Below are positions 2,956 through 52,749 of a stretch of 64,000 nt of DNA, one piece after another. Position 1 is the first letter of the stretch. Each line of letters opens with the position of its first letter. Both the position numbers and the translations under genes were made by a program. The stretch lies in assembly GCA_950295325.1 (NCBI GenBank), contig OX485806.1, forward strand, positions 13,332,001-13,396,000, given 5' to 3'. The notes under the pieces were generated by a model. It did no database searches. It was not told the DNA's origin and saw only the letters and a program-made list of their open reading frames with translations. Source of the stretch: Polytrichum commune. Its lineage: Eukaryota > Streptophyta > Polytrichopsida > Polytrichales > Polytrichaceae.

Positions 2956-4633
2956 TGTGAGCCCAAATTGACGTGCCCACATGTGTTTAGGATTAGAAGT
3001 CTTTAAGAGTTAGGACCGGAATTGTAGTTGATATAACAAAAGCGTAAAAAGAGTGTAAGTTCTAGTTTGAGTGGGATTGAGCCTGACGATAGGTTAAGGC
3101 GTTAGTGTTGAAAAGGAAGAAGGAAATTGCTCAAGTATGATAGAGTAGTGGGGGGTGAATAGTTAAGGGTACGAGTTAAGCTTAAGGACCTTAAGCCTCG
3201 GTTGAGGTGATGTTATTAGCTTGCTTAGGCAAGGGGGGTGTTCAATTTAGGCCTTGAGAAGGTTTTATTATAGCATTAAGGTAGTTGCCAACGGATGAGG
3301 TGAGCTGGTTTCCCGGATCAGGGAGGGGGACCCGACTCTGTTCGGTGGGAGGCACTCCGTGCAAAACAGGGGATGGTTGCGGGAGTGCATGGAATGCAAC
3401 AGAAGGTGAATGGAGAGCTTGGGAATGGGAGGCTGCTAAAAAAGAAGAGGGTTGCGGCTGGGTGGCCGCCGAGGAAGGAGAAACCAGCGCAATGTGGGTA
3501 GTGGAATTGGCGAGAGGCTGCTGCAACAAAAGAGTTCGGATGGGCAGGTATGGAAATCCGGCAGTCTAGCAGCTCATCCGGCAGCGTGAATTCAATGCAC
3601 CGACTATCGGGAGGGGGGATCAGGAGGAACCCACACTGAAGGAACTTGGCGCACTTATTCCATCTAGAAAGGGGGGTGCATGAAAGATGACTCCTGGGCG
3701 CACAGTTTGCAATCCATTGCTGGATTACCCACCACTCACATGATAGAATTCAAGGGTGTATTCAAAATGTGGAATGTTGCGCTCGGAATGGATAATTTTT
3801 GAGGATTCGCAAGCAGGGAGGTAGTGACATAGACAAAGCGAATTGAGGTTGAGAGAGGAACAGGGGATTACGGCCAGGAAGGGTAGGATCTCGATGGCAG
3901 GGAAAGGCCTTCAGATTGATTCATCTAAGGTGGGAAGCAAGGCTGGTGAGGGTGGATGAATCGTTGGCTGCGAAGAGGTTGCATTCAAATTGATTGGGCA
4001 ATGAGTGTTGGATCAGCACGAAGTGGCCGACTGGAGAAGCGCGCAGCTTATTCTGTTGAATGGTAGCGGCCGAGGAGGTGGGTGCCAGGGGCCTCAAAAG
4101 CAGGCCGGGCTGAGGCTTCGAGGGTGGAAGGGATCGGGACCAGTTGGCCGACCCAGCTGGGTGACGGGCTTTGACGGGCCAGGACCCGGAGGTGAACAAC
4201 GCACTTTCACGGCGACCCAAGGGTGACTGAGTTTTGAAGCCGGGGCATCGAGGGTCTGTTTAATCAAGGGGTATTAGGTGAGGCTAATAGGTAAGGGTTT
4301 AGGCATGCTTAAGTAGGGGATTAGGGACATTGATTAGGAGAATGGAAGTGAAGGGCTAGTGCTTGGCCAAAGCCCCTCTCACTTGTGGTTAGATTTGAAT
4401 AGGTTAAGTGTGGATTGTTGAACCGAGAGGTGGATTGGTGACAAAAACAGACTAATGTAGAGAAAACATTATTTAATGCTTGTACTCGTGCTTTGAAATA
4501 AAAGTCGTGAGTTCACTAAGGCCTGGGATTAAACCCTACCCATACCAAGGGTAAGTACACACTTAGCGAGGATTGTGAGTCACCAATCCCCCCGGACTAC
4601 AGACGTAGAGGGGTGGGGATTTTGGGCGTCACA
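2956..4633 (+). mobile_element. Solo LTR, 1678 bp, GGATG target duplication
   Basis: The element starts TGTGAGCCCAAATTGACG and ends TTTGGGCGTCACA, so it has TG...CA ends and inverted termini (TGTGA-GCCCAAA against TGTGACGCCCAAA). It is flanked by identical GGATG (2951-2955 and 4634-4638). The first 130 bases align with the start of the LTR at 18996 (shared 'aaaaagagtg', 'gagcccaaa.tga'), and the last 45 bases align with the ends of the LTRs at 1510 and 20502, so all three belong to one diverged family. The middle (about 3290-4250) is unusually GC-rich and not shared. No coding capacity. A solo LTR arises by recombination between the two LTRs of a full element. It sits inside the PIF-like remnant, so it is younger than that. 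Confidence 0.9.
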
Positions 4634-33159: not shown

Positions 33160-36100
33160 CTATGCTGTGTGGGGAGCATGTGCCACTAAATATTGGATTG
33201 GCCAGTACACTTTCCAGCTCACACTCTCTGCAAGTGTCTCCACCGATGTGTACCTCCCAACAGTGTCTGGGTGCAGCAACGGTGCATTTGGATGTACTAC
33301 ATAGGTAATGGTCACCACTTGGGCACCAAAAGGGACGCTCAATGCGTGTTGGGAGTTCGAGCGGCCATGGATGCCTGCCCTACCGGATCCAACCACAGCG
33401 TTGCCATACTCGGGATGTAATAGATCAACCAACGACCCATACGCCATGGGCACCTGCACAACCACCCAACAATCTCATGGTAAGGGTTCCTCTCATTGAT
33501 AACAGTTTTCATGTCCGTGCTACCATCTTAAAAATGAAATAGACACCCACCGGCATCAGAATGTGGGCACCGACGCCTCGTACTCCGACCCGCTTTTTTG
33601 GTCCAGGGGTTCATGTTCCACCAGGTCCGCGAAGAAAGCGACGCCAAGCTTCGTCTCCCTTCTGCACAACGACAGGATAACATTCCGTCAAATCCTTTTC
33701 ATATGCCCAGGAACACACAATGGCTAATGATGTAGGGCGTCTACTTATCTTCCTAAGCTAAGTAAGTTAACACACCTCTTGTGCTCGTGAGACATTGCCA
33801 TCCTGTCGCGACGTGCTGCCTCCTGCTACCAGTGATGGAGGCCGATCTGCAGGTACGTGGAACACACCCGAGGGTCTCATCCGTTTGGGATTACCCTGGT
33901 CTTTCACTACGGGGGATTTTGCTATGTGCGGGACCTGTGTCCCCAAACACACAACATCTATGTCATCGGTGGCCGCGTCAAAATCCAGGCCAGGCTCCAT
34001 GCTACAAGTCATGCCTTGCAAATCCCCACAACGCGACCCAGGCGCTCGTGTGTCCACACCTTGCGAATTAAACAACTGCACACCCAACCTGCCTTTCAAC
34101 TTCCCCTTGTTTAGAACCTCAAGACTAGATGGACGTGGGGTTTGGGCGCCACTTGGCCCCCCTGCACTTGAAAAAAGCCTCTCCAGCCTCGTGGGAGTTA
34201 TCTTTCGCAACGCCGGAATCCGTGCCATTGCACACTCAGCCAGGAAAGACGTCTTCGGGGGTGTGATCTCTATTGGTGGAGTTGCCTCAGCGCTCCTTAC
34301 GTTTTTTACCTCCAGAGAGGATATTTGTTCTTCCAGTTCAGTAATCTTATTCCAGATCTTTGTGTTCTCGTCAACGAGTTCTTGTCTCCAAAAGGAGAAC
34401 AACCCTTGCGGGGTGCAATTCAAGCATGATTTGTCACATATCATCGGCTCCTGCACCCACATTTCATTTGAACGAGATGGATCAGACCACATACCGCCTC
34501 CCTCTAGATGAGCACAATTAAAGGGGAAAACATACATTGTAAATTGACAAAGGTAGCTTACACAACAACCACTGGAGATACTCACAACATACTCCTTCTG
34601 TCGATGATCCCAAGGTTGACCCGTTTTTGTGTTGACGTCAGGGAGTTGTGAGTCAGGGACAACATTTTTTGATGGCTCCCCATCGCCAAAATCCTCCTTC
34701 TCGGGGTTTTTTTGGATATCCTCTCCCTGCATCAGGCATCAATCAAGACCACCACATCAATCACTATAATTCTGTGCATATCGTTTTTTACTGTGCATCG
34801 ACTTGTTCACAAGGCGAGGACTCAAAATATTACCAGCTCATGCATGCGGGACATGTTTGACACTGTCCCGTTGCTGGAAACAGATTGCACACACGACCGC
34901 GCATATGACATCCTTGCTGAAACCTCCATGCCCTCTGCCGACTTCCAAAACCGGACACATGATTTCCATACATGGTCAGGACAAGATCTTGGTTTTGACC
35001 CGTCCTTGTAACCACTTTGTCTCCAAGTTCGGCACCACCTTGACTGTGTCTCAACTATATGGGTTTGCAGGTATTTTCTCACAACTCCATCTTGAAGAGG
35101 GAATGGCTCATATCTAAAGGCCTTGTTTGCTATCCTATTTTCGATCGCCTCTATTATTTTCTGGCTATGCAATCCGAACTCGCGTTGGCTATAATCCAGG
35201 TACGAGTAAGCGTAAGATCTAATGGCTGCATGCCATTTCTCGCGTAACTCAATCACAAGCCCAGAGGCGTTCGTTTTCAATGTCACTACGAGCGGGACTC
35301 CACTGGCCACACTGTCCCTGACTTGCCGACGGTAATTGGCATTTGCCCTTCGATTGTCCGCGCGACGTTGTGATGCAGGGCGAGATAGTTCGATAACATG
35401 TGAATCAACTAGGAGGTCATTGGACTGTACCTGCGGAGATGGATCACGGCCGTCTACCTCATCCTTTCTAGGCGCGGCATCCACCAAGCTTCGACGAGGG
35501 TGTGTAATCTTTGCAGGAATACTTCGATGCGGAGATCTGCTGCCATGAACAGCCAAGGCGTGCGGGGATGACTTCGATGAGCCCCCATAACCAGCACTCT
35601 TTGTGGTCGGCCGCTGAGAAGGATGTACCAACTTTGCATACACTCCCTAGACACACAATGAAGAGTATTGACAATGAGGCAACGTTCCAATGACAAAAAT
35701 TCAAGAGCTGCGAAGTTACTCATTGACGCAATGACAAAATACTCACTGTCCGTGGTTTCGGCACATTTGCATTGGTCTCTGGGCGGCTAACAGGCGCTGT
35801 GGTTGCTGATGCTACATCAGCTCTCCGTGTAGCGCGGCTACGCTGCGGTGATGGTTCAACACATTGCCGAGTTAGAGTCGGCGAAACATGGTGACTGTTT
35901 GGTGAGTGGTCTGGGGACTCCTCCGTTGTTGTGTCGTTCACATCAGGTCTGTATTCATCGCTGTCATCGAAACGATCTCTAGCATCATCGTAATTTTCTT
36001 CAATATACAGTTGTGGGGCCATGTGTGCTAATCTGGCACTTCGCCTACGCGGCACCTGGCTTCTGGAGGACAAGCTGGGAACTCTGATCTCAAACTCTCC

Positions 36101-36774: not shown

Positions 36775-36966
36775 GGCCGCTTATGGAAGTCGACTGCACA
36801 ATGTGGGCGGTCCCTCCGATGAAGAGTTTGTAGAGGGTGACCTTCAAAGTGTGTTGAACATATATGGGCGAGCAAATTCACAACACAACATGATTGCTGA
36901 GCCCTTTTGACGTCCTGTACATTCTAATTTACTCATATACGATTCTTATCCACTTCAACTGTGCAG

Positions 36967-39900
36967 TGCCCACCTGAAGACTCTTCGGATGAAGAATGGG
37001 GGTCAGCAGAGCAGAGATACTGTGATGGTCTTCAAGAATTCATTGGGGATGCTCCCAGGGCTAAGGATCGCCCACTGGACGCAGATATCCGATTGGATGG
37101 TGTTATCAGAGACATGTTTGGCCAAGTGGACGCCACTATGCAAGGTAACGAGTTGGGTTCATCGGATCCAGATGAGGAATGCCCAGGGGCAGATGATGCA
37201 GATGCCTGGGACTATGCTGCGTTTGAGGGTGCGGATGAAGGTGCAGACCGCTTGCAAGAGGATCTAGAGGACCAATTGAGAGTTCCCCTATTTCGTGAAG
37301 GTCGTGCAAGTCGTTTGGGTGCAACTGTTGCATTGTTGAATGCCTTCAAGACACACAAAACCCCTGGTGTGCTAATAGATGAGGTATTCAAGTTGCTGAG
37401 CCAGTGGATATTGCCGAGTCCAAATTCCCTTCCCGAGAACGAGAAAGCAGCAACTAGGTTTCTCCGCAAAATGGGGCTAACATATGATTTGATACACGCA
37501 TGCCCTCGTTCATGTTGCCTATTTAGAGGGGATTTGGTGCACAAAGAGCATTGCCCCCATTGCGGGAGTCCCAGATTCATTAGAGGTAACATTCCGGCGA
37601 AAGTACTCCGACATTTTCCTCTGATCCTGAGGTTGAGGCGAATGTTTGGGATCCAGAAGATTTCAGAGTTGTTGGTATGGCATCACCACAATAAATCCAC
37701 GGACGGACTCATGCGTGGGCCTGCTGATTCTCCGCAGTGGGCTTTCATTGATAGTAAATATGCAGAATTTGCAACTGATCCAAGGCGATTGCGATTCATT
37801 CTTACAGCCGATGGCGTGAATCCTTTCGGGAACAAAAATTGTTCCTGGTCTACATGGCCAGTTATTGCGACCATTGCCAACTTGCCACCTTGGCTGATGA
37901 CAAAGAATTTCTTTCTCTTACTATGTTTGTTAATACCTGGTAGGGAACAACCATCTGGGGAGCAGTTCGATATCTTCCTACAGCCTTTATTGGAGGAGCT
38001 AAAGACTCTATGGGTTGTGGGGGTCGATATGAGGGATGCAGCAACCTTCATGGGTCAGCCTGTATTCAAATGCTTTGGAATCCTGATGTTCACAGCACAC
38101 GATTTGCCAGGGTATGGCATAGTAGCAGGCTTGGCTACAAAGGGGTACATGGGTTGTGTCCACTGTGGTCCTCAAACTGTTGCACGTTATTCGCATAGCC
38201 TGCGTAAGGTTGTGTATAATTCTCAATATCGAAGATGGCTGAATGCCGAGCACGAATTTCGAAGGCACGTAGAATTGTTTGGTGGCAATCCAGAATTGCG
38301 TCCACCACTTGCTTCTTCAACGGCAGCGCTGTTAATTGAGTGGGGGAGGATAAGGAAGTCATTCATACTTGGAGGTGGCCGACCAAAACGCAATGACCCA
38401 TGTCGTCAGAACGGAGTAAAACGAGTTCCAGCCCTATACGAGCTTCCGTACTTCAAGGTCAGTTTTCTGAAATTCCCATGCAGTATCCTCCCAACTTTGC
38501 CCGAATTTGCCCTTATTATACCTTAAAGCATGTAATGTACGTGGATGGCGCTTGAAAGGTTTGGTTGTGGAGTGCATGTGGCAGGAACTCCCTATGAGGC
38601 ACACATTAGACATCATGCACATAGAAAAAAATGTTTGTGACAACTTGTTGAGGACAATAGTGGGGGAGAAAGATAGCCCAACTGTTCGTCATGACATGAA
38701 AGAGATTAATGTCCACCCGGAACTATGGATGAGGCGGGTCCGCACCAGAACTGGGCGCCTAAAGTGGGTAAAACCTCATGCCCCATATGTCTTAAGCAAG
38801 GCCGAGTCGCAAATATTTATGGACACGATTTCCAAGTTAAAGGTCCCCACAGGGTATTCAAGTTCGTTCAAGAAGCACGTTGTCAGTGGGAATTTTGGTA
38901 GCTTGAAGTCACATGACTTCCACATCTTGTTGCAGACAGTGATCCCACTAGCTGTACGTGGATTGCTACATCCAGCAGTGCGTGCGGCAATTATGAGGTT
39001 GGGAACATTGTTCAGGTATTTGACTGCAAAGGTAGTGAACCCAGGAAACATACAGTGGCTAAGGGAGTTCACAACAGAAACCCTGTGCATAATGGAGGTG
39101 TGGTTGCCTCCCGCATTCTGGGATATAATGTCGCATGTTTTAGTACATCTTGTGGATGAATTGCAGTGGTGTGGACCAGTGGCTTGCAGGTGGATGTACC
39201 CGTTGGAGAGGTACATGGTTGTTTTGAAAGGCTTTGTGCATAATAGGGCACGACCAGAGGGTAGCATGGCTGCAGGGTACTCTTGCTAGGAAGCATTGGG
39301 TTTTATCACTAGTCACATGAAGGATTTTAGTCATCACACCACACGCGTATGGGATGACGAGGAAGAGTCATTTATGACATCTGAAGAGCTAGAAGGAATC
39401 GGAACCCGCAAGATACTCACACCCATGGAGCAAAAGCTTGCACACAATTTTGTGATCACGAACAGTGTTGCCACAGCCGAATACTTGGGGTAAGGGTGAT
39501 TGGAAGCCCCCATTTCGATATGGCATGGATATTTGTTTGTACAGAACATGTTGATGTATATGTATGCCAAGATGCCTCCTGAATTTGTAGACTCAAAAAA
39601 CCATTTCAGCTGAGAAGGCGTTGGATCTGTGGTTAGGCGGTACAACGATCTACGACGTAGGCACACCGAAGAGCAGAAAGCACTTAGGCGGACGTGGCCT
39701 CCCTCGGATTACAGAGCTCACAGGAAGGCGAGCACTGCCGGACTTTGTGGAATGGTTGTCTGACGTTGTGAAGGAAGAAATGGGAAATGGAGTGGATGTG
39801 GGAGACCATGTCATGGCGATAGGATTCCCTCCAAGCAAAGAGGCATACACTTACAGAGCCCTTAGAGCATATGGAAACCACTTTCGCATTTGCGATGTGG

Positions 39901-40583
39901 ATGGAGGTTGTAGGCACATCACATTCGATTGCGGAGTTGCAAACTTGTTCTGGCAGGGGTCGCGGAGCAGTGTTCGTGACAAGAACATCGTGGATGGCCA
40001 GTTGAGTTACGTGGGAACACTCACAGAAATATTGCAGCTAAGTTACAAGGACATACACATCTTGTTGTTGAAGGCACGTTGGGTGCAACCCAATAGTGTT
40101 GGCCGCGAGACACTAAGGCATGACGAATATGGGTACTTAATGGCCAACTTTGAACGATTGCAGCCGGTAAATCGTGAGCCTTATGTCTTTCCCGCAACAG
40201 TGAAACAAGTGTTTTTCAGTGATGATGCAACTCATAGAGGTTGGAAAATTGTTCTTGACAAAGAACCGCGAGGAGTGAGGTGCATGGCAGATGAGGAGGA
40301 ACCACAGTTGGGTCCAAATGCTTTTGCGGCAGGAGTCCAAGCAGAATCTCACATTAACATACAGTATACGTACACACAAGCTATGGCTAATGGCATTATG
40401 GTAGCAGATGAACTTGTTCCCACATTTCACGGAGGAGGCCTAGATCATGGTCCTTCTGCCCCAACACAAGCTCATGGATGGGCGGAGGAATCAAGTGACG
40501 AATCAGACAGTGCCTCTGACCATTCATGCAATGGAGAGGACTTAAGTAGGGATTTAGATTTTGTAGATCTCGATAGGCTATAG
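36967..40583 (+). pseudogene. CACTA transposase (Transposase_21/TNP2, DUF4218, DUF4216), broken
   Basis: The first clear exon follows acceptor TGTGCAG at 36966 and runs to 38457. It holds an acidic N-terminus, a Cys/His cluster (CPRSCCLFRGDLVHKEHCPHC) and the Transposase_21 core (ADGVNPFGNKNCSWSTWPV, NLPPWLMTKNFFLL, FDIFLQPLLEELKTLW, HDLPGYG, ELPYFK). Intron 38458-38584 joins ELPYFK in phase to ELPMRHTLDIMHIEKN, the family's canonical continuation. The next exon (38585-39489) covers the DUF4218 region and contains an in-frame TAG at 39287-39289 (GYSC-stop-EALGFITSHM). After donor GGGTAAGG, reading resumes about 39637 (RYNDLRRRHTEEQKAL), but a one-base shift near 39728 moves it to LPDFVEWLSDVVKEE, followed by DUF4216 (VGTLTEILQLSYKDIHILLL; DEYGYLMANF; GWKIVLDKEPRG) and an acidic tail ending at 40583. 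The start is uncertain: an ATG at 36773 may lie in an upstream exon (possible donor after DEEF, phase 0). Confidence 0.88.
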
Positions 40584-45440: not shown

Positions 45441-47400
45441 TTAATATAGCTGCTGTTGAGGTTTATGTATAAATTTAGATCGGGATAATGCTTTCCCAAG
45501 TACGGCAGGCTTTATTAGGTATTTGCAAGGTACCGAGGTGATCTGCTCGCTTTTGGCTGGGGTTAGGTGGAGCGAGATTACGGTGATCAGAATTTGGCGA
45601 TGATGTGGGTTTTTTATAGAATTAACATCAGCATACTATTCATCCAAGTATATTTAAAGTTGCAGGGTGGTTTGAGGGTCCTGCTTTTTTTGGGGGCTCG
45701 CTGTTGAGATTCATGGATGATATCCGTCAGGATTAGATCTTCCCAAGAAAGAAAGTTGGGTGGTTGCAAGGTCCTGCTTGCTTTTGACTGGGATCTGGTG
45801 CGAGATTACGATGATGATCTCTAAGTTTCGCGAAGTTGCTGTTTATTGAACTCCATCAGGACAATGTTCTGACATGTATGATTTTTCAGGGGGGCTAGCT
45901 GTTGAGGTTTATGAAGATCCATCAGGATTATAGATTTCCAAGTTCGAATGTTGGATGGTTGCAACGTCCTGCTTGCTGTTTGGGTGGGATTCTGGTGCGA
46001 GATTATGATGATGATCTTTAAGTTTGGCGAAGTTGATTATTATGGAATTCCATCGGGAAGATATTCGAACAAGTGTGATTTGTCAGGGTGGTTTGAAGGT
46101 CCTCCTTTTTTGGGGGGCTTAGCTCTCGAGGTTTATGAAGATCCATCAGGATGATATATTTTCAAGTTCGAATGTTGGATGGTTGCAAGGTCCTGCTTGC
46201 TGTTTGGGTGGGATTCTGGTGCGAGATTACGATGGTGATCTTTAAGTTTGGCGAAGTTGATGATTATGGAATCCCATCGGGACAATATTCTAACAAGTAC
46301 GATTTTTCAGGGTGGTTTGAAGGTCCTGCTTGTTTTGAGAGGCTAGCTGTTAATGTTTATGCAGATCCATCAGGATGATGCATTTCCGAGTAAGGAAGTA
46401 GGGTGGTTGCAAGGTCCTGCTTGCTGTTTGGGTGGGATTCTGGTGCGAGATTACGATGGTGATCTTTAAGTTTGGCGAAGTTGATGTTTATGGAATCCCA
46501 TCGGGACAATATTCTAACAAGTATGATTTTTCAGGGTGGTTTGAAGGTCCTGCTTGTTTTGAGGGGCTAGCTGTTAATGTTTATGGAGATCCATCAGGAT
46601 GATGCATTTCTGAGTAAGGAAGTAGGGTGGTTGCAAAGTCCTGCTTGCTTTTAGGTTGGGTTTTGGTACGAGAGTATGATGGGGATATAGAGTTTGGTTT
46701 TGATGTTCATGTAATTCGCCATGAGCATATTATATTCTTTCAAGTATGAAGTTTGGGTGGCACTGGGGTGGTTTGAAGGTTGTCCTGGTTTCTGGGTGGG
46801 ACATTGGTATGAGAGGAGGAGGATCTTAAGTTTGTCTGACTGCAAGGGGCTAGCTGTTGATGTTTGTGGTAATTCAAACAGCATAATATTCTGCCAAATA
46901 TAGAAGAAGGTTGTGGTTTGAAGGTCCAGCTTTTAGGTGGTCAGGTAGGAGCACCTTAAACCAAGACAGCACCCAAAACCAGCACCCTCGAGATCTTGCA
47001 TGATAATTACATGTTGATTTGAGAATGCTCAGCATGTGAACAACAAGGCCCGTAATGGTTTTGAGTGCCAACACGGTTCAAAAATTTCACTTCAATAAAG
47101 TTTTCACTTCAAAAATTTGTATTTCTTTCAATAAATAGGAGGGGAAAAAATCGCAATACACTTGGTCTCTTTTTTCTACCTGGGAATATTTTGTTTGGTT
47201 CATGCGGCTGCCACATGTATGCCAAGTACCTTTACTTCTTAATTTAAGATGCTCCTACCTCATATGGGTATGCGATTACCGTGATCTTAAGGTTTGGCTG
47301 ACAAGGGCGAGCTGTTGATGTTTGTGTGATTCGGCCATCAACATAATATTTTCCCAAGTATAAACTTTGGGGGTCCTTGGATGGTTTGAAGGTGCTGCTT
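45440..47400 (+). repeat. Tandem array of about 224-bp units upstream of the fucosyltransferase gene
   Basis: The anchor 'gtcctgcttgc' recurs at 45771, 45966, 46190, 46414 and 46638, giving periods of 195, 224, 224 and 224. Weaker, older copies extend left to about 45440 and right to about 47400. Each unit contains 'tgggtgggattctggtgcga', 'agtttggcgaagttgatg', 'atcgggacaatattc', 'ttttcagggtggtttgaagg' and 'gctagctgttgatgtttatg'. Since 224 is not a multiple of three, the reading frame changes between units, so the 68-75 codon ORFs in it are not protein repeats. The central units are most alike, the usual sign of unequal exchange. The array ends about 20 bases before the candidate TATA box. Confidence 0.85.
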
Positions 47401-47412
47401 TTTGGGTTGAAT

Positions 47413-47422
47413 GTATATATAT
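47413..47422 (+). promoter_or_regulatory. Candidate TATA box of the fucosyltransferase-like gene
   Basis: Sequence gtatatatat lies about 140 bases before the ATG at 47559. A start site 25-35 bases downstream would give a leader of roughly 105-115 nt. A second AT run at 47425-47437 is an alternative. Confidence 0.4.
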
Positions 47423-47558
47423 TGATATATGTATATTTTGGTACGGAATTATGACGCGCTCCGAGTGATGCGGCTAGCTAGTTGTGTAGAGAGGGTTCTG
47501 ATGCTGTCTGGTTCCAACAGGTCGGAGTCTCACTGGGTGGCCTGAAGTTTCGGTAAAA

Positions 47559-50500
47559 ATGGCGGACATCAAAGGTGAGTACAGTCTCCACTGTAGAAAC
47601 CCAATAGAAATGTCAGGTGTATGGTAGCAACAATATCCCATTTGGGGTTGGAGGGGGCCAATGTGAGATACTTTTGCTGTGCACTTGTGTGCATTTGTTG
47701 TAAGTCCAACTCCACCAAGAGAGAAAAGACTTTAGGGTCAAAGTGGTTTAAGGGTTGTGTCACACGGCTTCTAGGCAAAGTCGCTGCAAGGCACACCGTT
47801 CTATGGCAAAATAGTATAATAATATACACGTGGAGCCCCAGTATATAATGCATTTGAATGAACTATCTTGTGTAAAACTTGTAATTGGTTAAACATAGTT
47901 TTAATCCACGAATGTTAACACCACATTACGTACTCAGGCATGTTGATGATTTGCTTCAACTCGTGAGATTTCACCACTTCAGAAAAGTTTCTGGTGCATT
48001 GGAATTTGGACCATGGTGCAGGCGCAAGATCTTTAATGATATGTTCCTCACAGACTATTATATATGGTCTACTTGCAGGTTGGAAGTTGAAACTAGTGAG
48101 GTCTGCTTTGTTCTGTGGAGCTGCTTTGCTGCTCAGCTTCTTTCTGCTGGAATTGTTTCACCGGTAAGCTTTACATCCAAAGCTCAAAATCACATGGTAT
48201 GGGTTTCTGTAAAACAATAATTAGGTCTGGAAATGTCTAGACGGTGTGATCTGTGATCGTTTCTTGAAAGAAATGGAGATAGATGATGTCAATCATGCGA
48301 TCAACCAAGGCGACTCTTAACCTACACCCCAACCTCAAACCTCAGTATTGGGTGATAAAATAGGTTAAGGAAAGGGCACTCAACCGACCTATTATAGTAT
48401 CATCCAGATTGAGGATTTTTGAATTTGGGCTTGAGGTTAGGGTCGTGCTAATTTATAAGTTTCAAAGCTGTGGTTGAGGTTAGGGGTGGTCAAAGTTTGA
48501 ATAGGGTGGCTTGAACCCAAAGCCTTAACCTGTATCCCATGGAAACGTTGACTTTAAGCTACCTAAGGCCGGAATAAGGTAAGTTATCCTATTACTGAGA
48601 TGGTGCCCTTTTGTCGAGCTTTAGGGAATAAATTCTAAAAATTAACTTATGGTCCTAGGGTTCACAAAGTTTCCGATGCAATGAACTAATGAATCAAGTG
48701 AGGTGTTGGAGTTCGGTGGAGCCCATCTTCATAAAGGAAATTTAAAAGCACTTACATGGGAGAGGTATGTACCAAAAATGAGAACACAATCTCTCTCTAA
48801 TTGTGACTAGGTAAGCATGGTTGTCATGATTAGATAATTCCTTTCTATTCCTTTACTAGGATAGGTTACTAAGGCATTGGATTGAAGACACATTATGAGG
48901 GTACTCATAACCAAATTAGCATGTGTAACCAAATTAGACACTTGATGATTGTGTAAAGATAAACTTAGAGGTGGAATATTATCGTATACTTAAAGATAAC
49001 AATGGCATCCGTGATTCTTAAGAATGTTTATACTTGAGATTTCATATGAGGTGTCACTAGGTCATCACACCAAAATTCATAACTATTTCATACTATGTCC
49101 AAAAAATATGAAATAAAAATTGGAGATAGCGTTTGTTTTCTTGAATTAAAATAACCTTTTTTTGGGGAGAAGAAATGTATAATTCTCTAAATGTTAAAAT
49201 TGCTTAAGATTTGGTCCTTTATGATAGGGAAACATACCTTCGAACTCAGATGAATGACCTTCCTAGGACTTGATTTTTGGTGCACCCTACCACCTATAAT
49301 CAACCCAATCACTGAGGGGGATATATGGATGAACTGGATATTTCAACCAACCATGTGGGAACCTAGTGGCGTGCCCTTGGGGGAGATTTTCTACGCTTGT
49401 TCAAGGTGTTCACCTTCAAAAGGGGCCCTCTAATTCTTTGTGGCGCTCATTTTGGGATTACATATAGACTTTGACCAACTCAAAAATGAAGCAACACCAT
49501 AAGTTGGAAGTTTGTTTGTTTTCTTTTCTTTTCTTTTTCTGGCCAAAGTTTGGTTTGGTTTGGTTTCATGATTTTATATGTGATGAATGCTGACAGGCAA
49601 CCCAACTGGCCCATCGGCAATCGTCCATTATGCGAGAATCCACCTCAGAATTCATCTCAGAATCCACCTCAGAATCCACCTCAGAATTCATCTGATTCAA
49701 CTGTTGATGCCGAAGAAGTAAAGGCGCGAGATCCACTTGAGGAGTACCTATCACAGTTTCCGACGACGGAATGCAAGACGCACTGGTACCCGGCAGGGAG
49801 TTGGACGAGGCGGGCGACGGAGGTCGCGGTGAGCGATCGGCCCGTAGGGCAGCAGATGTTCGGGAGCATCCCGGCTCAACACGCGATCTGGCGGCACCAA
49901 CACCCGAGCACGTGCTACGACAAGAAGTTTTTGGTCGCGCGGGCGACCGGGCACGGACACGGCATTGGGTCGGTCCTGCACGTCGCCACAACATTCCTAC
50001 AAGCGGCGCTTGACCTTGACCGCATCCTCGTCTTGTGGCCGCAGCCGGGGCAGGATTGGTTGAGCGGATCGTATTGCGACGGCGCAGACACCCTGGACGA
50101 CTGCTACTTCGAGCCCCTATCGTCGTGCACCATCTACGACGTGTTCGGCAACGTCACCTTCTCCGATGCGCTCTTCGACACGCTCCCCTGGCTAGACGGG
50201 GCGACATACGCCAATAACTCGTACCCGATCCTGCGCGACGCCGTCTTCGGCGGCAAGTTCTTGTTCCACGACACGCCCAAGATGTTCCACGAGCTCCTGC
50301 GCTCGGGCAACATCTCCCCGCAGTTTTACTACTGGTGGCGTGCGCAGGGCGCTGCGTACATCGTGCGCCCGAATCGCAGGACGCTGCGCGAGCTCGAGCG
50401 CCGGCGCATCGCCATTTTCGCCGGCGGCGCGGAGATCGAGCCGGGCACGATCTCTGTGCATGTGCGCCATGGCGACAAGTGGAAGGAGAGCAAGCTTGCA

Positions 50501-50896
50501 AGTGATGAGACGTTTCTGCAGAAAACTGAGGAGCTCCTGCTCCGGCAACCCGACGTACTCAGGCGCAAGATCTTCTTGAGCACCGAGGACCCCAACACTG
50601 TGAAGTTCTTCGCCAACCTCTCTGATTGGAGCGTGCAGTACACGAATGTGACTCGCGACGGGAGTGACCCAAACATGAGCCCCGAGCAGTTTGCCAGCCG
50701 GATTGGGTGGACCGAGGAGTTCCTCAACAGCCTGCTTAGCCTGCAGCTCGCGCTTGAGTGTGATGGATTCGTCGGCATGATCGGCTCCAACTGGAACCGG
50801 CTCATCGACGAGCTCCGATCCACCATCCGCTGCAACTACCACCGTTTCTACAACGACGTCGACCAGGGATTTCAAGTCACCGACTATTACTGGTGA
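47559..50896 (+). CDS. GT23/FUT8-like fucosyltransferase homologue, three exons, Golgi type II membrane protein
   Basis: Model: exons 47559-47574, 48079-48163 and 49597-50896, 1401 nt, 466 residues. Splice sites: AAAG|GTGAGT, TTGCAG|GTTGG, CACCG|GTAAGC, GACAG|GCAACC after a pyrimidine tract. Phases (1, then 2) join with no slack. Exons 1-2 give MADIKGWKLK, a basic tail, then a hydrophobic anchor at about 11-32. Exon 3 gives an Asn/Pro/Gln/Ser linker (46-68) and the catalytic domain: GHGHGIG (152-158), VHVRHGDK (321-328; the FUT8-type VHVRR.DK donor-binding motif), IFLSTEDP (359-366) and DGFVGMIGSNWNRLI (423-437; the third FUT8 motif). Several N-x-S/T sites fit a secretory-pathway enzyme. At 466 residues it is shorter than animal FUT8 and ends after the GT-B core, lacking the SH3 module. 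Animal FUT8 adds core alpha-1,6-fucose; the acceptor here is unknown. Exon 3 is strikingly GC-rich against AT-rich introns. Taking exon 3 alone would start at an intronic ATG (49568 or 49583) and lose the anchor. ATG context AAAATGGCGG is strong for plants. Confidence 0.9.
49245..49318 (+). repeat. Direct repeat flanking exon 3, left copy
   Basis: The block 'atgaatgaccttcctaggac..gatttttggtgcacc..accacctataatcaacccaatca' in intron 2 recurs at 51227-51297 with roughly 80 per cent identity by eye, about 280 bases before and 330 bases after exon 3. Confidence 0.6.
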
Positions 50897-52749
50897 TTCG
50901 TCGATTGATTGATCCATCCACAACTTCTAATTTAACCATCACACGAGCCCAGCTCAAGTTCATCATCACCTCTGTCGAGATTAATTATCTAAATGGTACC
51001 AGTGGTGAAATCAGTGGGACATCTATCATTGTCCTGGATACTGGGGGAAGTGGCGATGACCTGGGCGAAGTGGCGACTGAAATTCGATCTACACTCCGAC
51101 CAAGGGCAGAGTTTTTATCTCATGAATTCATATGCCGATCGTTATTATTATATTAACTCGCAACCGGATCCCATTCAAGGTCAAGCCGTTCCAGTCAAAC
51201 CCACCAAAGGTAGGAATAGTATTCGGATGGATGACTTTCCTAGCACTGGATTTCTGGTGCACCACCTATTATCCACCCAATCATAGTGGTGGGATTTAGT
51301 CCTTTTTATTAACCTGCATCAGGCCCTTGGATTTGACATCCAACTCTTCCAAATTTAACAACATGATTCAGCCACTGCCTGAGCAGCACTTGAACCTCCT
51401 GCGCATGCCCATCCACACAAGAAATTTTGTAAGTAGATCATCCGGTACCCGAAACTGGTTAGGGTTAGGGGTTCGTCATTTGATGGAAGACCGAAACCAG
51501 GCTAGGTTTGATTTACTGTCATGAGTGTCAAGGAGATAGGCAGACGGTCCGAGATGAAAGAATTCCTTCAGGTTGTGATGAATGCTCTACTAGGGGATTG
51601 ATCATTGATAATCTACCTAGTAAGCATTTTGATGAGTCTCAAGTTTTCACCACTGATATTATCCTGCGATTTGATGTCACATGTGCTTGATGGTGAATGT
51701 CATATTGTAAAGAAACCGTGAGAGCCCATGGACTGTTTATAAAAAATTATAACTTCCATGGACCATCAGTGTGTGGGCCAGCAAGTTATTCCATTTGGGG
51801 TCATTAGTTTGGGGAGCCCCACAATTTTTTTATAGATATTGCGTACATCCAATGGGAGCACGGGGCAATGAGTGGGTATGGGACTCGGGATGTGGGGATG
51901 AGGATAGGGCTAATAGAATTGGAATAGGGACCTTTCAGGTTATCAACCTAATAATTGTGAATACTTTGGACAATCATTGCACAATGGGATTCTCAAGGAC
52001 ACCAATATTGCATTTTTTTTTGTAGTAGATAGTAATTATTGCAATACATGTGTGTTATGGTTTTTGGTAATTTCATCACTTCTTGTATACCTCTGCTTTA
52101 CCTTGCAACAGAAAGTTTTAGAAAAGGTAAATTCACATGAGATGTGTTTCCTTCATCAATCGTGAGAAACAATAAAGGCACATGAGTCTTCCTTTTAAGC
52201 AAGGAGAGCCTGAGATTTTGAAACTTCTAAGAACAACAATAAACAAAAGTGGGCATGTGACAAAGAAATATCCAAGAAATGCATAAAACTAAGTAAAAAG
52301 GAAGAGAAAAGATATGAGAATTACAAGGAAAGAGGACGAATGGAAGGATGCCAAACATTATTCAACTAAGTTTGTAAGTTGGGTGGAGCCTGGAATAAGC
52401 CGGATTCTATTTGGAATTATACTTTGTTTACTCTCACAATAAAGCACTACACTGGTGGATTCAAGTTGAAAAACTTGAGAGAGATAATGTATTGATATTA
52501 TTAGAATGGAGCAGTTGATAGCAACTGAATAATGTTATGTAGAAAGAAGGGAGGTATGAAAAATAGGTGTATCCAGTTGTCTTACCAATGATTAGGCAAC
52601 TCTATAGTATTTTTCTGCCTCTAAATATTTATGGGATATTATTAGCCTTGGAGGCCCACTATATAGATTGGAAACAATGAACGGGGAGAACTGACCACTA
52701 GTTATACTAGGTGAATTGTTGAGTTTGAGAAACAACTATTTGAAGTTCA
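50897..52749. other. 3' flank of the fucosyltransferase-like gene; no further gene
   Basis: The first 250 bases are presumably the 3' untranslated region; no unambiguous AATAAA was found close by. The small ORFs to 52165 have no recognisable features. Confidence 0.45.
51227..51297 (+). repeat. Direct repeat flanking exon 3, right copy
   Basis: The block 'atggatgactttcctagcac..gatttctggtgcaccacctattatccacccaatca', same orientation as 49245-49318. Confidence 0.6.

Follow-up and report, generated by a model that had tools for sequence, protein, structure and literature searches.

We propose that the moss Polytrichum commune encodes a predicted fucosyltransferase whose sequence most likely places it in a GT23-like, FUT8-related family. 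With moderate confidence, we favor the hypothesis that this protein would act as a type II enzyme of the Golgi, transferring L-fucose with inversion from GDP-fucose to an acceptor other than that of FUT8. The gene lies in a window of 64,000 nucleotides, corresponding to positions 13332001-13396000 of contig C4 in the genome that was searched (407.8 Mb, 64 contigs). Its three exons join without a stop into one open frame of 466 amino acids, which upholds the original prediction of three exons in exact phase. The gene model, in coordinates of the window, is as follows.

Exon 1, 47559..47574, plus strand: 16 nt encoding MADIK, with A at -3 and G at +4 of the start codon and the donor GTGAGT.
Intron 1, 47575..48078, plus strand: phase 1.
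Exon 2, 48079..48163, plus strand: 85 nt, after TTGCAG and before GTAAGC, encoding the basic tail and hydrophobic anchor.
Intron 2, 48164..49596, plus strand: phase 2, a junction phase common to three other open copies.
Exon 3, 49597..50896, plus strand: 1300 nt encoding the stem and catalytic domain, including the stop codon.

Residues 1-34 of the predicted protein consist of a basic tail followed by a hydrophobic stretch, and the earlier claim that the two small upstream exons provide a membrane anchor is borne out in this respect. By the hydropathy of the translated sequence, the stretch would qualify as a type II signal anchor. The exon 3 product contains eight N-glycosylation sequons, which would suit a protein of the secretory pathway, and we presume that the gene is expressed and that its product resides in the Golgi. 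Separately, units spaced about 224 bases apart form a tandem array at 45719-46652, 0.9 kb upstream of exon 1, with up to five copies that are 79-88% identical to reference copies. Elsewhere in the window, positions 36928-40583 hold the remains of a transposon, which we take to be of the CACTA type; Transposase_21 (tnp2) and DUF4218 exceed their cut-offs there, and DUF4216 falls slightly short of its own. Two reverse-strand open frames near these remains (33770-34735 and 34825-35643) have no Pfam match at E ≤0.01.

The gene is not alone in its genome. A protein search yielded 13 scored candidates, with at least 10 matches at E ≤0.001, and these represent at least five gene loci, four of them open and one decayed.

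Window copy, contig C4, exons at 47559-50896 of the window, plus strand: open.
C6 copy, C6:39.295 Mb: open, 60% identical to the window copy.
C1 tandem pair, C1:42.624 and 42.639 Mb: both open.
C3 copy, C3:58.917 Mb (locus C3:58910500-58920400): decayed.

When inspected by eye, the C6 copy and both C1 copies each have a small anchor exon with its own ATG, followed by a phase-2 donor; the frame of the C6 anchor exon was computed and the luminal exons of the relatives were translated. The luminal exon begins with QPNW in the window copy; at this place the C1 copies have QPKW and the C6 copy has LPYW. In the C3 copy, two of the four matched pieces contain a stop, and HVRHGDK appears by eye to read HIHHGDK, with the catalytic arginine replaced by histidine; judging from its sequence, we accept this copy as a decayed pseudogene. 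A similar fate for the window copy is rejected on account of its open frame and retained residues. Contamination is likewise rejected, because the copies are spread over contigs C1, C3, C4, and C6, each of which is tens of megabases long. In one C1 copy, the start of the luminal exon appears by eye in three tandem partial copies (about 3560-3933 of the locus extract, minus strand), the first two of which end in a possible donor site and could represent either additional mini exons or remnants.

Estimates by the NG86 method for the tandem C1 pair give dN 0.276 and dS 1.243 in the first luminal exon and dN 0.131 and dS 0.571 in the second, that is, a dN/dS of 0.22-0.23 across the two. Between the window and C6 copies, 409 codons show 130, 106, and 245 differences at first, second, and third positions, respectively, and dS is saturated and yields no NG86 value; for the window copy, constraint is thus demonstrated only indirectly. 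These figures fit an old family that would have evolved under constraint.

The presence of an anchor exon and a phase-2 junction in the C6 copy and both C1 copies supports exon 2 and intron 2. Furthermore, the interval 47575-49560 offers 244 candidates for exon 2, each an AG..GT segment with a length of 45-150 nt and the required phase. Of these, 39 have an open frame, and six also contain an 18-residue stretch with a mean hydropathy of at least 1.9; all six overlap exon 2. For exon 1, we considered the 83 ATGs from 46079 onward that are open for at most 300 nt and have an in-phase GT before 48040, and scored their donors with weights that are our own approximation of the donor site. The exon 1 donor scored 7.53, the best of the 83, and the runner-up 2.82; among the 313 GTs in 46001-51000, the exon 1 and exon 2 donors rank second and fourth. 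Thus scored, exon 1 leads the 83 candidates, without a counterpart seen in the relatives. It is conceivable that part of the gene model is mistaken, with exon 1 unused and translation starting elsewhere, for example from the in-frame ATG at 48036 within an unspliced leader. The relatives point in this direction, given that their anchor exons contain an ATG and that an exon-1-like pattern has no match in the C6 locus. Nevertheless, we regard an alternative start as unlikely: exon 2 of the window copy contains no ATG of its own, and the donor of exon 1 is far ahead of those of the other 82 candidates and is accompanied by a good start context.

The assignment to a FUT8-related family is based on profile comparisons. 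In the Pfam scan, FUT8_N_cat (PF19745) is the sole match of the window protein at E <0.05, with 26.4-26.7 bits and E 3-4e-6; the match falls below the Pfam cut-off of 27.6. All four open copies match FUT8_N_cat at E ≤1 (best 2.1e-9), and a single C1 exon, at 29 bits, exceeds the cut-off, being the sole match to this family in the Pfam search of the genome. When a profile of the four copies was compared with the PDB, all eight sequences matched at E ≤10 bore the name alpha-(1,6)-fucosyltransferase (best E 3.2e-9). An hhalign comparison with a checked fragment of FUT8 gave a probability of 96.3 and E 1.7e-9, with 27% identity over 283 columns. The earlier description of a FUT8-type domain is therefore right as to kinship and must be tempered as to distance: the relationship is remote, and the window protein stays under the family cut-off. 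PF03254 (GT37) and PF00852 (GT10) are absent from the Pfam scans of the window protein at E ≤1, and the NCBIfam scan returned weak unrelated matches alone (E 0.13 and 0.24). Viral contigs contained no relative when searched with the single protein; with the four-copy alignment, 178 stretches in viral contigs and 100 in prokaryote genomes fit a pattern, and none was a relative. AlphaFold2 run on exon 3 as a single sequence gave a pLDDT of 34.6 and no usable model.

The catalytic motifs can be aligned with those of FUT8, and the two that had been named at the outset, VHVRHGDK and SNWNRLI, are both present in the joined protein.

Glycine loop HGHGIGSVLH, 49952..49981, plus strand: aligned to KGCGYGCQLH, residues 216-225 of FUT8.
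VHVRHGDKWKE, 50456..50488, plus strand: equivalents of FUT8 His363, Arg365, Asp368, Lys369, and Glu373.
SNWNRLIDELR, 50786..50818, plus strand: equivalent of FUT8 Ser469.

Arg365, Lys369, and Glu373 are said to be essential in FUT8 (passages of PMC7033129), and all four open copies have their equivalents, that of Glu373 being aligned across a one-residue gap. The equivalents of His363, Asp368, Tyr250, and Ser469 are likewise found in all four. The GDP side-chain contacts of FUT8 are not all retained, given that Tyr250, His363, Arg365, Lys369, and Ser469 are kept and Asp453, which contacts guanosine, is not: it corresponds to Ser381 in the window protein and to serine in each open copy. Additionally, Asp409 is replaced by glutamate and Gln470 by asparagine in all four, and Lys216 corresponds to histidine, glycine, alanine, and glycine across the four copies.

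The loss of Asp453, together with an identity to FUT8 of only 27%, could mean that these proteins are GT-B enzymes of the FUT8 superfamily that use a donor other than GDP-fucose. We consider this quite improbable, as most of the other side-chain contacts of GDP or fucose are retained and, according to the sections consulted of a 2012 paper (PMC3522684), the characterized functions in GT11, GT23, GT37, GT65, and GT68 are all those of fucosyltransferases. We favor instead a mechanism in which GDP-fucose is the donor and L-fucose would be transferred with inversion through an SN2 step, as in FUT8. The arginine and lysine of HVRHGDK would grip the pyrophosphate and the glutamate that follows the motif would serve as the base, again as in FUT8.

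The acceptor is another matter. FUT8 carries a C-terminal SH3 module, which includes His535. The original prediction held that no animal-type SH3 module is present, and indeed the window protein has no Pfam match to one at E ≤1 and extends for 35 residues beyond the Ser469 equivalent, compared with 106 in a FUT8 taken to be 575 residues long. Animal FUT8, the GT23 core alpha-1,6-fucosyltransferase, and the moss protein share an N-terminal anchor, an alignable catalytic domain, the glycine loop, the HxR..DK..E pattern, and the Ser469 region, whereas they differ in the SH3 match, in the changes of Asp453 to serine and Gln470 to asparagine, and in overall sequence (27% identity). The window protein probably functions in the manner of a FUT8-type fucosyltransferase, but because neither the SH3 module nor Asp453 was found, we do not file it as FUT8. 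Since the module for the N-glycan arms is missing, the acceptor is most likely other than that of FUT8; it would be another secreted glycan, candidates being a polysaccharide of the wall, an arabinogalactan protein, and an outer site on an N-glycan.

It could be argued that the protein is a true core alpha-1,6-fucosyltransferase acting on N-glycans despite the missing SH3 module, in which case it would be the moss counterpart of an activity in green algae. Core alpha-1,6-fucose has been measured in the green alga Scenedesmus, as related in passages of PMC12507850, where core alpha-6-FucT genes (GT23) are also predicted in microalgae, including green algae, by BLASTp with human FUT8; the moss gene is likened to these by description only. 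FUT8 is, moreover, the sole family among the PDB matches, and the catalytic arginine, lysine, and glutamate are retained. By eye, an LPWLD motif could correspond to Asp295 of FUT8, a contact of the innermost GlcNAc; the aspartate of this motif occurs in three of the four open copies, and hhalign does not place Asp295 there. Against this stand the short C-terminus without an SH3 match and the loss of Lys216 and Gln470, the contacts of the two core GlcNAcs. The SH3 module is said to matter for the dimerization and location of FUT8 and, to some extent, for acceptor binding (passages of PMC11468063), and a survey of moss N-glycans reports, in the sections consulted, the usual core alpha-1,3-fucose glycans (PMC8773788). 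On balance, core alpha-1,6-fucosylation by this protein seems rather unlikely, and we retain the hypothesis of a different acceptor.

A parallel may be found in brown algae. According to passages of PMC11468063, GT23 homologs are very rare in bacteria, fungi, and Chlorophyta, and GT23 is usually metazoan; brown-algal genomes nonetheless have seven GT23 genes on average, which are about 22% identical to FUT8 and lack SH3. Their donor site is kept, as are His363, Arg365, Asp368, Lys369, and Ser469, and their proposed acceptor differs from that of mammalian GT23, perhaps being fucan precursors (same passages of PMC11468063). Like them, and compared by description only, the moss family has several genes per genome, no SH3 match, and conserved donor residues, although brown algae are a lineage distant from mosses. 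It is possible, if doubtful, that mosses have their own SH3-less GT23-like family making a fucose linkage new to land plants, in parallel with brown-algal GT23. The linkage could be, for example, that of the extra fucoses of large moss N-glycans or of a side chain of a wall polysaccharide. In six moss species, large N-glycans have been tentatively assigned extra fucose and methyl groups, one composition being Hex5 HexNAc4 Fuc5 Pent1 (section 13 and other parts of PMC8773788). Plant GT37 and GT10 enzymes, with 37 matches and matches at three places in this genome, respectively, are presumed to use GDP-fucose as well, whereas they belong to other Pfam families, neither of which the window protein matches.

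The moss source bears on how the gene is to be viewed, for the original prediction had set it against a flowering-plant background. Plastid PsaB (contig C8) scores 1704.6, 1702.4, and 1700.6 bits against moss 8htu, 6l35, and 7ksq, then 1667.2 against 9lut, followed by a group at 1616-1630 bits that includes pea 5l8r (1616.2); pea 4xk8 scores 1595.6 and Chlamydomonas 6ijo 1539.2, all among the best 60 of 175 matches. Passages of PMC7884438 identify 6L35 as Physcomitrella, 4XK8 and 5L8R as pea, and 6IJO as Chlamydomonas, and 7KSQ and 8HTU are labeled PpPSI in the portion consulted of PMC10005731. A nuclear Lhcb (contig C5) scores 482.0 and 480.1 bits against chains of 8htu and 7xqp, the PsaB sequence of the latter being identical to that of 6l35, and the next single-chain match is 8c29 at 447.4; the top row, 9vfj at 547.9 bits, is a longer chain in which no single stretch is over threshold. 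Of the chains checked, those of mosses give the highest scores for both proteins. Together with the look of matK by eye, this leads us to reject a flowering-plant origin, so that the contrast with flowering plants falls away. Contigs C1 to C7 are the large ones of the genome, a number that might, tentatively, suit the seven chromosomes of a Polytrichum-like moss. On the same contig as the Lhcb, C5:1751760-1846160 holds 14 light-harvesting protein matches of equal score over about 95 kb, which by score alone resemble a tandem array.

A 2025 review of plants states, in the part consulted, that FUT8 is 'absent or missing in plants' (PMC12711721), and with FUT8 so counted there, the question of the acceptor stands. 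Our literature search on GT23 in plants and bryophytes found no moss GT23 named in the titles or the starts of abstracts among the papers listed, most subscription papers being outside its scope. The terms 'GT23' and 'Physcomitrella' both occur in PMC3522684, and the places examined in it contain no passage on a moss GT23. With four open members, the moss family would extend a GT23-like activity to a lineage of land plants. Mosses serve, according to excerpts of the literature, for making glycoproteins with engineered fucosylation; if the enzyme acts on secreted glycoproteins, its activity would be relevant to moss glycoengineering, and if it acts on wall polysaccharides, there would be a new linkage to look for.
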